From: a virus
Virus record (IMG/VR): IMGVR_UViG_3300046656_000262
Location: 1-28,484 of that record
Length of the DNA: 28,484 bases
Direction: 5' to 3' (one strand)
Shown: one piece after another, positions 702 to 27,250 of the stretch
How positions within the stretch are numbered: the first letter of the stretch is position 1
Layout of the letters: each line of letters begins with the position of its first letter
Translations under genes and position numbers: made by a program
The notes under the pieces: model-generated
The model's database searches: none
What the model was told of the DNA's origin: nothing
What the model saw: only the letters and a program-made list of their open reading frames with translations

Positions 702-1495
702 GTCGCGCCTTCATGCCATTCTATTTCGGCGACTATCTGCGCGACACCGGCCACCTCACGACCGAGCAGCACGGTGCCTATTTCCTTCTGCTCGGCCATT
801 GCTGGGAGCACGAGGGTGTAATCCCTCTGAACAACAATGAGCGGGCCGCCATAGCCAAACTGACTGCAAAACGGTGGCACGCGATCAAGGCGCCGATCGA
901 GCGGTTCTTCAACCCTGACGGAACCCAGAAGCGAGTGAGCAAGGAACTCGCGAAGGCGGACGTGGTGAGTGTCAGGCGAAAAATCGCCGGGGCGAGAGGC
1001 GGGTTTCACTCAGCCATAGCGAGGGCCAAGCAAAACCCAAGCAAACCACCAGCAAAAGGCAAGCAAATGACCAAGCAAATGCCAAGCAAAAGTGAAGCAA
1101 ACGACCCAGCAAAACCCGAGCAAAATTCAAGCAATAGGATACACAACCACAACCACATTAAGAATCTTACTTCTTCTGAGTATGAAGCCGCGCGCGCGAC
1201 CCCCGAGGAAATGCCGACAGATCAACAAGATAACACGGCGGGCTCGCTCGCTACAGCGCTGCGTGGGGGCGCGCTCACTCGCCCGCCTGATGCCGAGCCA
1301 GCAGCCACACCAGCCAAGCCGCCGAGCGAACTCACACGCGCCGAGTTGGAGGCAACGTTCGAACGCCGCCGAGCAAGCGATGCCGCGGCAGCCGCCGCGC
1401 GCGCACGCCGCGTCTGGGGTCGTAGCCAGCCACCACCGCCAGCCGCCTCAAACGCAGTCGAAAAACAGGAAGGGACTACCGATGTCGAGAGATGA
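698..1495 (+). CDS. DUF1376 (YdaU-like) replication protein carrying an internal iteron array
   Basis: The 265-residue protein starts MSRAFMPFYFGDYLRDTGHL, the hallmark N-terminus of the DUF1376/YdaU family, with further family signatures (TTEQHGAYFLLLGHCW) to about residue 100. Members sit in phage replication modules and are thought to be winged-helix initiator-like proteins. After residue 105 the sequence becomes low-complexity, rich in Lys, Gln, Asn, Pro and Ser, exactly where the DNA carries phased AGCAAA repeats (1029-1135). The C-terminal third is Ala/Arg-rich. I infer it binds its own gene to open the origin, by analogy with lambda O. The ATG at 698 overlaps the previous stop; its end overlaps the next gene's start by 14 bp. 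Confidence 0.8.
   Translation: MSRAFMPFYFGDYLRDTGHLTTEQHGAYFLLLGHCWEHEGVIPLNNNERAAIAKLTAKRWHAIKAPIERFFNPDGTQKRVSKELAKADVVSVRRKIAGARGGFHSAIARAKQNPSKPPAKGKQMTKQMPSKSEANDPAKPEQNSSNRIHNHNHIKNLTSSEYEAARATPEEMPTDQQDNTAGSLATALRGGALTRPPDAEPAATPAKPPSELTRAELEATFERRRASDAAAAAARARRVWGRSQPPPPAASNAVEKQEGTTDVER
1029..1135 (+). repeat. Ten helically phased AGCAAA iterons (candidate replication origin)
   Basis: The hexamer AGCAAA begins at 1029, 1040, 1051, 1062, 1074, 1085, 1096, 1108 and 1119, with AGCAAT at 1130. The steps are 11, 11, 11, 12, 11, 11, 12, 11 and 11 bp. A weaker AGCGAG at 1018 keeps the step. Most copies read AAGCAAA. The units fall in all three codon phases of the host gene, so selection appears to be on the DNA, not the protein. 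One unit per helical turn in a replication gene, followed by AT-rich DNA, is the architecture of an iteron origin. Confidence 0.75.
1131..1187 (+). other. AT-rich stretch beside the iterons (candidate DNA-unwinding element)
   Basis: Directly after the last iteron the sequence drops in GC and is dominated by short A/T and CA-rich runs (for example ATTAAGAATCTTACTTCTTC at about 1157-1176), inside otherwise GC-rich DNA. It ends abruptly at a GCGCGCGCG run at about 1189. The position next to an initiator-binding array fits a duplex-opening region; function is inference. Confidence 0.45.
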
Positions 1496-24743: not shown

Positions 24744-26383
24744 TGTTTTCGATTCTTGCGCTCGTCCTGTCGTTGTTCGGTGCCGATCCTGCCGCCGCGC
24801 AGGGGTGCGGCCAGCAGAACCCGAACTGCATCGTGCCGACCGCGCCAGTCGGCACCAGCAACAATCAGGCGGCGTCCACCGAGTTCGTGCAGCAAGCCAT
24901 CCCGGCCGCCGGCCAGCCGCTCACCAAGGCTGACGACACCAACGTCACCGTAACGCTCGGCGGCACGCCCGCGACCGCTTTGTTGCAGCCGACCTCCATC
25001 ACGATGGGGTGGGCGGGCACGCTCTCCGTCTCGCGCGGCGGACTGGGCATCGGATCGGGCACGAGCGGCGGCATCCCGTATTACTCCGGGTCAACCACCA
25101 TCGCGTCATCGGGCGTGCTGTCCGCCAGCAATCCGGTCATCGGCGGTGGCGCGGGCGTAGCCCCATCATCGGGCACTCGTAGCGGTAATACTACAGTTTT
25201 TGGAACAACCAGCGGGACCTTAACTTCGCAGAATTGTGTGAAGTTCGATGCGAGCGGCAATCTCGTTGCCCAAGGCACTGCCTGCGTCAACGGAGCGGTC
25301 GCCAGTTTCTTCGCCGATCCATCAACGGGCAATGATAGCAATGATTGTTTGGCGGCCTCTGCTGGTGGTGGTCACGGTCCATGCTTGACCCTGCAGCGGG
25401 TGGTCAGCGTTGCGATCACCTATGACGCCGGCAATGTTCGGCCGATCATCAATCTCGCAGCTGGAACATTTACATCCGGTGCAACAGTTGCTGGCGCACT
25501 GCGAGGTGAAGCAACGCCAACTGCAAACCCGCCAGGGTTGTCTATTGTGGGGGCCGGCTCAGGGTCGACAACGATAGATGATACTCCGTTATGCGGAACT
25601 TTAATCGCAAGCAACCATGCGAATGTCATTCTTTCAAATCTCACAATTCAGCATTCTGGTGCCGGCGGTTGCGGAGGCCAGGGAAGCGCGATTTTTGCAG
25701 AAGGGTTAGCATTTGTTGCTCTCGGCGCTGATGTGAAGTTTGGCCCGACGCAGGGCCAGCATATGCATGCTGAGGGCGGGGCGCTGATCGAGATCACCGC
25801 AAACTATTCGATCGGTGGTAGCGCAGCCAACCACATGGCTGCATCAACTTCAGGAAAGATATTCAACGACGGTCACGTTGTGACATGTACGGGGGCGTTC
25901 GCATATACGACCTTCATACTCGCACAATCAAACAGCACTATATTGTTTTTACCCGGCGCTACGTTTTCTGGATGCGGTGGCACGACCGGTGTCAAGTTTC
26001 AGTTAGTTGGCGGTGCCATACTTGATGCTGGCGGGGTTTCTGGCTTACTAGCTACCATTCCCGGGTCAAACAATGGCCAAGTGGATGACAGCTCACGTTA
26101 CAGCAACCCTGAGCCTTTGGCGACCCTGGGTACTTGTACCTCCGGCTCGTTGAATGCCAACAGCACCGATTGGAAGATGCTGGTGACTTTTGGTGTTGCT
26201 CCTGGCGCCTCATGCGCCATCAATTTTGCCTATTCTAAACCAGTAGCGCCCGTCTGTGTTGCAACCACTTCAGCGGTAGGGGCGGTTACGCTGAGTGTGA
26301 GCACGACTCAGGTCGTGGTCACTCAGGCTTTTGTGAACGGTGAGTCCCTGTACGTCATCTGCAGGCCCCTCAGCTGGATGTAG
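24743..26383 (+). CDS. Tail spike with beta-helix-like C-terminus
   Basis: This 546-residue protein recognises the host surface, by position and texture. Residues 1-20 look like a secretory signal (FSILALVLSLFGADPAAAQG), odd for a virion protein. Residues 25-55 (PTAPVGTSNNQAASTEFVQQ) are a repeat typical of phage fibre anchors. From about 190 on (DPSTGNDSNDCL...; CGTLIASNHANVILSNLTIQ) the sequence has the regular strand-turn rhythm of a right-handed parallel beta-helix like pectate-lyase-type spikes. No catalytic residues can be assigned. GC and codon use change from about 25180. The ATG at 24743 (TGATG) is preferred over the GTG at 24740. The last 114 bp overlap the opposite-strand methyltransferase. 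Confidence 0.75.
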   Translation: MFSILALVLSLFGADPAAAQGCGQQNPNCIVPTAPVGTSNNQAASTEFVQQAIPAAGQPLTKADDTNVTVTLGGTPATALLQPTSITMGWAGTLSVSRGGLGIGSGTSGGIPYYSGSTTIASSGVLSASNPVIGGGAGVAPSSGTRSGNTTVFGTTSGTLTSQNCVKFDASGNLVAQGTACVNGAVASFFADPSTGNDSNDCLAASAGGGHGPCLTLQRVVSVAITYDAGNVRPIINLAAGTFTSGATVAGALRGEATPTANPPGLSIVGAGSGSTTIDDTPLCGTLIASNHANVILSNLTIQHSGAGGCGGQGSAIFAEGLAFVALGADVKFGPTQGQHMHAEGGALIEITANYSIGGSAANHMAASTSGKIFNDGHVVTCTGAFAYTTFILAQSNSTILFLPGATFSGCGGTTGVKFQLVGGAILDAGGVSGLLATIPGSNNGQVDDSSRYSNPEPLATLGTCTSGSLNANSTDWKMLVTFGVAPGASCAINFAYSKPVAPVCVATTSAVGAVTLSVSTTQVVVTQAFVNGESLYVICRPLSWM

Positions 26384-27106
26384 GGCGGGGTTCGTCCAGT
26401 ACTGAACTCCGTCCCCGAATGTGATAGTGCCGAACTCGGTCTGATGGGTTCGTTGCAACGGATAATTGGCCTCGCAATGCCAGCCGGCTTGTTGAAGCAA
26501 GCGGTAGACTGACTCGTGAATCTCGTCGCTGTGGGTGGCAACGAATAGCCGTCTGACCTTGGCGCCGAGTCCATTGATGGAGTGTTCGATACAGGGCAGT
26601 TCGGCGCCCTGGATGTCCATGTCAATCAGGTCAATGTAGTCGAGGTCGTTGATCAGATCGGGGATCGTGATCGCCTCCATGGTTACGACCTTGGCCTCGG
26701 GCCAGTTGCCGAAACCATAGTCAGCGCTCGGAATGATCGCCTGACCGTACCACTCGTCAGGATGGCCGATCGTGAAGTGGACGGGTTCTCGCTGTCCGCT
26801 GACGGGCGCGTTGATCAGCGTGCATGACTTGAGGTCGACGCCATATCGGTAAAGGTGGCGGCTGAGTTCCCGAAAATGTGTCGGCTCGGCTTCGACCGCG
26901 ATGAAGCGCGCCGGCATTCCTGGATACTTTGCTTTCAAGGCTTGCGCAGCTCGCGCCGTCCATCGCCCATATCCGGCGCCAAGCTCCAGCATGGTGTAGT
27001 GGTCGCAAGCGTCCACGACGCTTTCAAGCAGGGCGATCCATTCAAAAATCTCCTCGTCGGCCGGCTCTTGAGCGCGATGGAATTCGGAAAAAATATCGAT
27101 GTTCAT
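26270..27106 (-). CDS. FkbM-type SAM-dependent methyltransferase
   Basis: This 278-residue protein is on the reverse strand, the only such gene here. Class I methyltransferase motifs are present: YTMLELGAGYGRW (38-49, SAM-binding Gly-rich loop), an acidic strand FIAVEAEPTHF (68-78), and the FkbM signature YIDLIDMDIQGAELPCIEHS (157-176) with Asp162/Asp164. FkbM enzymes O-methylate sugars. In a phage this could alter host surface glycan to block superinfection or change serotype; inference. The start at 27106 is chosen for GGGGAGGG just upstream; an ATG at 27250 lacks such a site. The last 38 residues (241-278) are antisense to the spike gene and may be a readthrough tail. Confidence 0.8.
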   Translation of the reverse strand: MNIDIFSEFHRAQEPADEEIFEWIALLESVVDACDHYTMLELGAGYGRWTARAAQALKAKYPGMPARFIAVEAEPTHFRELSRHLYRYGVDLKSCTLINAPVSGQREPVHFTIGHPDEWYGQAIIPSADYGFGNWPEAKVVTMEAITIPDLINDLDYIDLIDMDIQGAELPCIEHSINGLGAKVRRLFVATHSDEIHESVYRLLQQAGWHCEANYPLQRTHQTEFGTITFGDGVQYWTNPALHPAEGPADDVQGLTVHKSLSDHDLSRAHTQRNRPYR

Positions 27107-27222
27107 ATTTGGCCCTCCCCTGACAGGCGATCCTGGCACTTTCCAGGCGTGGACGCCAACCGGGCCGCCTTGGGGACCTGCGATAAACTTGCCACACCGG
27201 ATCAAGAAACGCCTCTGACCCG

Positions 27223-27250
27223 TTGAAGTCTTTGCATTTCTCCATATCAT
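27223..27250 (+). promoter_or_regulatory. Candidate promoter before the lysis genes
   Basis: TTGAAG (27223-27228) and TATCAT (27245-27250) are separated by 16 bp, 64 bp upstream of the endolysin ATG. The match to TTGACA/TATAAT is moderate (4/6 and 5/6). It sits in the 207-bp divergent gap between the reverse methyltransferase and the lysis genes, where a forward promoter would be needed if late transcription does not read through. Confidence 0.3.

Follow-up and report, generated by a model that had tools for sequence, protein, structure and literature searches.

Why should a phage gene carry ten copies of one short word, AGCAA(A/T), at steps of 11 or 12 bp that run through all three of its codon phases? 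The gene lies near the start of a 28,484-bp stretch of viral DNA, analysed over its full length and called the window below, and a sequence-only reading had proposed the array inside this DUF1376 gene as a replication origin. Judged from the DNA pattern, the array most likely marks the place where copying of the phage genome starts.

The array and its gene

The hexamers lie where they had been reported, with AGCAAA at 1029, 1040, 1051, 1062, 1074, 1085, 1096, 1108 and 1119 and AGCAAT at 1130, and the degenerate copy claimed one step upstream (four of six matches) is present as well (Table 1). Successive steps of 11, 11, 11, 12, 11, 11, 12, 11 and 11 bp average 11.22 bp, and the hexamers do occupy each of the three codon phases. 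AGCAA(A/T) occurs 18 times on the plus strand of the window, and 10 of these 18 sites are packed into the 107 bp of the array. The gene stays open because AGCAAA, in its three frames, encodes harmless linker residues (S-K, A-N/K or K-Q). The AT-rich DNA described behind the array was found, and so was the lambda-like layout in which such a tract follows the array inside the gene; the GC minima of the whole record fall here, in the 57-bp segment starting at 1121 and the 150-bp segment starting at 1028. The CACAAC repeat of this tract can be taken as the counterpart of the 6-bp-repeat tracts behind the arrays of related genes. Scans of positions 400–2600 showed nothing resembling a sigma-70 promoter and no more terminators than expected, and an Rfam search gave no match.

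Table 1. Coordinates of the array, its gene and the adjoining tract in the window
Feature	Position	Strand	Support or reference value
Putative phage replication initiator/primosomal protein, DUF1376 gene, 265 aa	698..1495	+	Pfam PF07120, E 7e-15; PHROG 3992, E 4e-23
DUF1376 N-terminal domain, modelled as small, helical and winged-helix-like, with a long helix	710..949	+	AlphaFold2 mean pLDDT 88
Degenerate outer copy AGCGAG, one 11-bp step upstream of the array	1018..1023	+	
Array of ten AGCAA(A/T) sites, 11/12-bp steps, three codon phases	1029..1135	+	
AT-rich tract, putative DNA unwinding element, 36.8% GC	1131..1187	+	Window 63% GC
CACAAC x2.7, 6-bp repeat within the AT-rich tract	1142..1157	+	TRF; lag-6 identity in relatives
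C-terminal part of the initiator, without family match	1191..1492	+	

The protein scores 55.6 bits with the PF07120 HMM, for which the curated cut-off is 30.1, and is thus a DUF1376 member; its best PHROGs carry the name 'primosomal protein'. A single-sequence AlphaFold prediction of the whole protein was poor (pLDDT 55) and was set aside for a model of the N-terminal domain built with 92 sequences, whose long last helix is predicted to run into the linker that the array encodes. A sequence search of the PDB with the domain profile found no match. Foldseek against the PDB returned weak matches to the modelled domain (best E 0.1), mostly helix-turn-helix and winged-helix proteins, among them 4pta ('Structure of MDR initiator') and 4pql ('N-Terminal domain of DNA binding protein') at E 0.4–0.5, which we take to be staphylococcal plasmid RepA structures. 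This modelled likeness to plasmid initiators may serve as a lead only; a Pfam scan of the window protein gives DUF1376 alone, with no RepA_N or RepC family match.

A DNA signal across phage initiator genes

The phased array is a real DNA signal and no by-product of the protein. When the same protein was recoded synonymously in 350,000 trials and the longest phased chain was scored, the maximum was seven sites against the ten observed: five with phage codon usage (200,000 trials), six with uniform codons (100,000 trials) and seven when codons were shuffled within the gene (50,000 trials), the check that had been suggested. The array is built from codons that the phage, itself GC-rich, avoids (GCA, 9% of Ala codons; AAA, 19% of Lys; CAA, 24% of Gln). 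Across 99 pairs of related DUF6291 genes, which are not independent of one another, third positions at conserved amino acids had changed in 37 of 953 comparisons in hexamers (3.9%), 65 of 334 in spacers (19.5%) and 3562 of 13352 in the rest of the gene (26.7%), and the contrast is large. The nearest relative of the window gene, L001, whose best tblastn segment is 81% identical in amino acids, has retained most hexamers and differs in the spacers and by one indel; third-position changes between the two number 0 of 12 inside hexamers compared with 26 of 195. Both the recoding and the scarcity of synonymous change in the hexamers bear out the view that the pattern is imposed on the DNA and not on the protein, and here a DNA code that passes through every reading frame has shaped a coding sequence.

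To what extent do other DUF1376 genes carry such repeats at the same place? Among 145 non-redundant genes, fetched by the N-terminal domain alone, AGCAA pairs behind the domain number 28 at 11 bp, 22 at 12 bp and none at 10 or 13 bp, with a second rise at 22, 23 and 24 bp (12, 17 and 10 pairs). Distances of 11, 22, 23 and 35 bp are not multiples of three and therefore cannot be made by codon repetition. Phased AGCAA chains number 21 in about 75 kb of linker and two in the other ~1.6 Mb of strand. Some 5-mer is present in at least three copies at 11/12 bp in 39 of the 145 loci, compared with 0.5 in shuffles and 0 or 1 at spacings off 11–12 bp, and the further words include AAGCAATGCT-, CAACG- and ATGCG-types. 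The expectation of phased repeats at the same place thus holds for these 39 genes and fails for the other 106, in which no exact phased 5-mer was found; given these, and the Rac gene ydaU, in which no phased array was found, the array is not universal.

The phasing is sharper in DUF6291 genes, with 150 AGCAA pairs at 11 bp, 118 at 22 bp, 89 at 33 bp and nearly none elsewhere, in a sample that was likewise fetched by the N-domain and leans to arrays since its queries came from array-bearing genes. Over 149 non-redundant genes with an array, the repeat has the consensus A-AGCAAA; 508 steps measure 11 bp and 111 measure 12 bp, the three codon phases are used equally (265/254/249), and codon 108 is the median start of the array. 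Just behind the array the GC fraction drops to 0.36, and lag-6 identity, with a background of 0.28, climbs to 0.56; this tract is (TAATGN)n in DUF6291 genes and CCTTCA-, ACAACC- or TCACAG-like in DUF1376 genes. One run, of 58 AGCAAA copies at exactly 11 bp (L457 6662–7300, from IMGVR_UViG_2891296228_000001; also L448 and L539), looks like an array expansion, and its contig also has a DUF6291 gene with a long array.

A blind search of viral contigs by DNA pattern, five AGCAAA at 11/12 bp, leads to the same kind of gene. Among the matches listed, 83 genes include 41 of DUF6291 and 13 of DUF1376, others belong to DnaB_2, Lin1244_N and Phage_rep_org_N, and the PHROGs comprise replisome organizer, replication initiation and DnaD-like loader. 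A control with the wrong spacing (three AGCAAA at 13/14 bp) hit 115 stretches in the whole viral collection, whose 58 genes contain one of DUF1376, the rest falling into baseplate, holin, protease and similar families or none. Five-copy arrays therefore lie mostly in phage replication-initiation genes, whereas the wrong-spacing control does not. In bacterial chromosomes a four-copy array turned up in one of about 696 distinct genomes, drawn from overlapping samples, and there as a simple tandem repeat; these counts are not comparable with those from the viral collection.

In several named phages a replication gene comes after the initiator gene. In Bacteroides phage Versailles and Pseudomonas phage UFJF_PfDIW6 it is a DnaC-like loader, in Plectonema phage Lbo240-yong2 DnaB, in vB_RanS_PJN03 a primase/helicase and in Rhizobium phage RHph_N28_2 a DnaA-like gene. 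Lbo240-yong2 uses AAGCA-type phased words, and Nitratiruptor phage NrS-3 has ACC-type words followed by a TAATGN tract. AGCAA arrays are absent from TP901-1 rep, Listeria phage A118 gp49 and Rac ydaU. The replication-region gene gp49 of A118 (L126 5609–6541) resembles the window gene in having four CAACG at 11/12-bp steps, the same word as in one DUF1376 type, and differs from it in word and protein family.

Arrays of AGCAAA at 11 bp also occur in non-coding DNA (L413 9632–10937, L450 469–1760, L471, L503 and L445); at several of these loci they form inverted pairs roughly 1.2–1.5 kb apart, and one array stands directly ahead of a gene that seems to encode a large terminase subunit. Genes starting MAKSPGFWFFTGDWM have, besides the internal array, another of four AGCAAA copies in inverted orientation, mostly with steps of 12, 11 and 11 bp, which overlaps the start codon or lies just upstream of it (L008, L105, L409, L414, L417, L419, L441, L446, L454, L462, L463, L484, L490, L495 and L505).

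A candidate origin and its precedents

Our preferred reading is that the array and the tract together form an origin of phage replication, set within the linker-coding part of the phage's own initiator gene, a model to which, taken whole, we give a probability of about two in three. The AGCAAA words would be bound cooperatively by the DUF1376 protein or by a complex containing it. At a step of ~11.2 bp neighbouring protomers would touch and could form a spiral nucleoprotein filament on somewhat underwound DNA, whose stress may open the GC-poor 6-bp-repeat tract beside it; the C-terminal part of the initiator would then bring in a helicase or its loader. We are more confident that the array is an origin element, and less so that the DUF1376 domain alone reads the word, than we are of the model as a whole.

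The geometry of the sites departs from what had been supposed. One-turn spacing was expected to place all sites on one face of the helix, but in relaxed B-DNA, with 10.5 bp per turn, each step rotates the site by about 25 degrees and the vector sum is 0.30. The sites of the window align only at ~11.25 bp per turn (vector sum 0.99), and underwound DNA wrapped in a spiral protein filament would suit them more than a one-sided row.

Origins inside initiator genes are of a kind already known. The O genes of lambda and Stx phages carry iterons in mid-gene followed by an AT-rich tract, and iteron copies lengthen the protein linker (PMC7466680, PMC5043065). The window resembles them in having repeats and an AT-rich tract within the initiator gene, and two features of a self-embedded origin of the lambda O type, gene-internal repeats beyond what chance or the protein would give and an adjoining AT-rich tract, are both found. 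The ~19-bp inverted-repeat iterons of the lambda origin proper were not, the word A-AGCAAA being non-palindromic. Lambda has four and Stx phages six such long iterons, bound by O dimers; in the array genes described here, by contrast, the word is 6–7 bp long and non-palindromic, occurs mostly in 3–9 copies at 11/12 bp and is accompanied by a 6-bp-repeat tract, and the protein families are unrelated to O. In phage SPP1, compared by its published description only, the origin-binding protein is the replisome organizer gp38, and its gene, gene 38, likewise contains oriL, with direct repeats and an AT-rich unwinding element (PMC6316719). RepC of repABC replicons has its origin in the rep coding sequence, where silent mutations of an A+T-rich region abolish replication, and the iteron plasmids pSK41 and pAD1 have oriV inside the initiator gene (PMC3155836). 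RepC differs in being without iterons.

A similar step is found in E. coli oriC, where weak DnaA sites are 9-mers 2 bp apart, that is, in 11-bp steps; these are sites for the host initiator and lie outside the initiator gene. For oriC, oppositely oriented, phased arrays of such weak sites that guide oligomer assembly are cited in PMC5043065. In the literature searched, which is thin in subscription journals, no description was found of a three-frame ~11.2-bp array across DUF1376, DUF6291 and related initiators, nor of its swappable words and 6-bp-repeat tract, nor any paper on DUF1376 function, AGCAAA origins or the binding or replication roles of DUF1376 and DUF6291. If the origin model is correct, two large families of 'unknown function' gain a testable role, and phages known from metagenomes alone gain a simple DNA signature for their origins.

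Several observations count against the origin model. Sister genes with identical N-domains carry different words, which a simple model where the domain reads the word does not predict. Most DUF1376 genes (106 of 145) are without an exact phased 5-mer. Similar arrays lie outside initiator genes, beside terminase genes. The GC skew of the window is weak (cumulative minimum at 2134), and no helicase loader adjoins the initiator gene in the window, where it is followed by a Phage_gp49_66 gene.

Readers of the word and other explanations

The sister genes bear most directly on how the word is read. Three sister DUF6291 elements, L508, L512 and L513, align at 77–89% DNA identity across matched flanking blocks, and L508 and L512 have identical 64-aa N-domains and nearly identical (~90%) C-domains. 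Their words are AGCAAA in L508, ACCAAA in L512 and AAAACCCCTAA in L513, and all three keep the 11-bp step and the same tract. Across the sister DUF6291 genes, with N-domains up to 100% identical, the words are AGCAAA, ACCAAA and AAAACCCC. Since the word differs among near-identical genes, the folded initiator domains alone do not set it. The AGCAA label changes at least seven times on the N-domain tree, counted by well-supported branches.

The alternative that survives best keeps the array as origin and has the word read by something other than the folded domains of the initiator. The reader could be a host protein, a different phage protein, or the array-encoded Lys-rich linker acting with the short basic segment directly ahead of it. 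We consider this alternative possible, although clearly less probable than the preferred model. AGCAAA accompanies unrelated N-domains (DUF1376, DUF6291 and Lin1244_N) and different C-domains, a single N-domain occurs with AGCAAA, ACCAAA and ACCCC words, and the repeated switches of word type on the tree point the same way. Between AGCAA and ACCAA genes of DUF6291 only residue position 70 separates the N-domains, at the linker boundary; here an AT-hook-like GGRP/GGRK just before the array is found in 10 of 13 ACC-type genes and in none of 51 AGCAA genes (Fisher p 2e-9, with rows that are not independent). This link is partly trivial because P-K in GGRPK already results from reading the first ACC word in frame. 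No type-specific neighbour gene was evident in the six sister contigs, which are incomplete, and AGCAAA differs from ACCAAA by one base, so that the same domain with relaxed or slightly altered reading could serve both.

The word swaps, together with the sharing of AGCAAA by unrelated N-domains, suggest that the word is an exchangeable cassette. One may go further and propose that unrelated initiators of many phage lineages share an exchangeable origin cassette, made of a very short word (mostly AGCAAA), the ~11.2-bp step, three frames and a 6-bp-repeat unwinding tract. The folded domain of the initiator would then not be its reader; this part could fall to a shared factor or to the basic linker that the array itself encodes. 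We hold this stronger proposal to be unlikely. Were it true, the DNA would encode its own reader, and a cassette swap would switch origin specificity (incompatibility) while leaving the initiator unchanged. The sister genes raise the question of how initiators so alike can function with different iteron words.

It is improbable that the array is an operator for autoregulation of the replication operon, or a point of recombination and module exchange, instead of an origin. The MAKSPGFWFFTGDWM family, with its inverted four-copy array over the start codon, would suit an operator, and the word-cassette swaps between sister genes would suit an exchange point. In most genes, however, the array is internal, some 76–123 codons in, which is unusual for an operator, and the GC-poor 6-bp-repeat tract beside it looks more like an unwinding element. 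About equally doubtful is a structural role, in which phased A-tracts confer intrinsic curvature and the exact word is secondary. A-runs do recur at the same 11-bp step in the AGCAAA, ACCAAA and AAAACCCC sister genes, and lambda iterons are intrinsically bent (PMC7466680), but the A-runs are mostly only 3–4 bp long, ten copies at a mean step of 11.2 bp would drift by ~220 degrees at 10.5 bp per turn, and the AGC conserved ahead of the A-run is left unexplained. Selection for a basic SKxxANxKQ repeat in the linker, with the DNA regularity arising from the linker or from tandem duplication, is already strongly disfavoured and has very little left to recommend it: 11 bp amount to 3.67 codons, near one alpha-helical turn, 11 residues make three such turns and most families have a Lys-rich linker, but synonymous recoding does not produce the array, synonymous changes are ~7-fold rarer inside hexamers, hexamers stay while spacers diverge, the 12-bp steps break the 3.67-residue period, and arrays occur also in non-coding DNA and on the opposite strand across the gene start.

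Two further genes of the window deserve mention. Upstream of the initiator lies a GcrA-like gene (97–480, E 3e-25); GcrA is a cell-cycle regulator of alphaproteobacteria, and for this reason the host of the phage is probably an alphaproteobacterium. Towards the far end an FkbM-type methyltransferase gene (26270–27250, minus strand) sits amid forward-strand phage genes.
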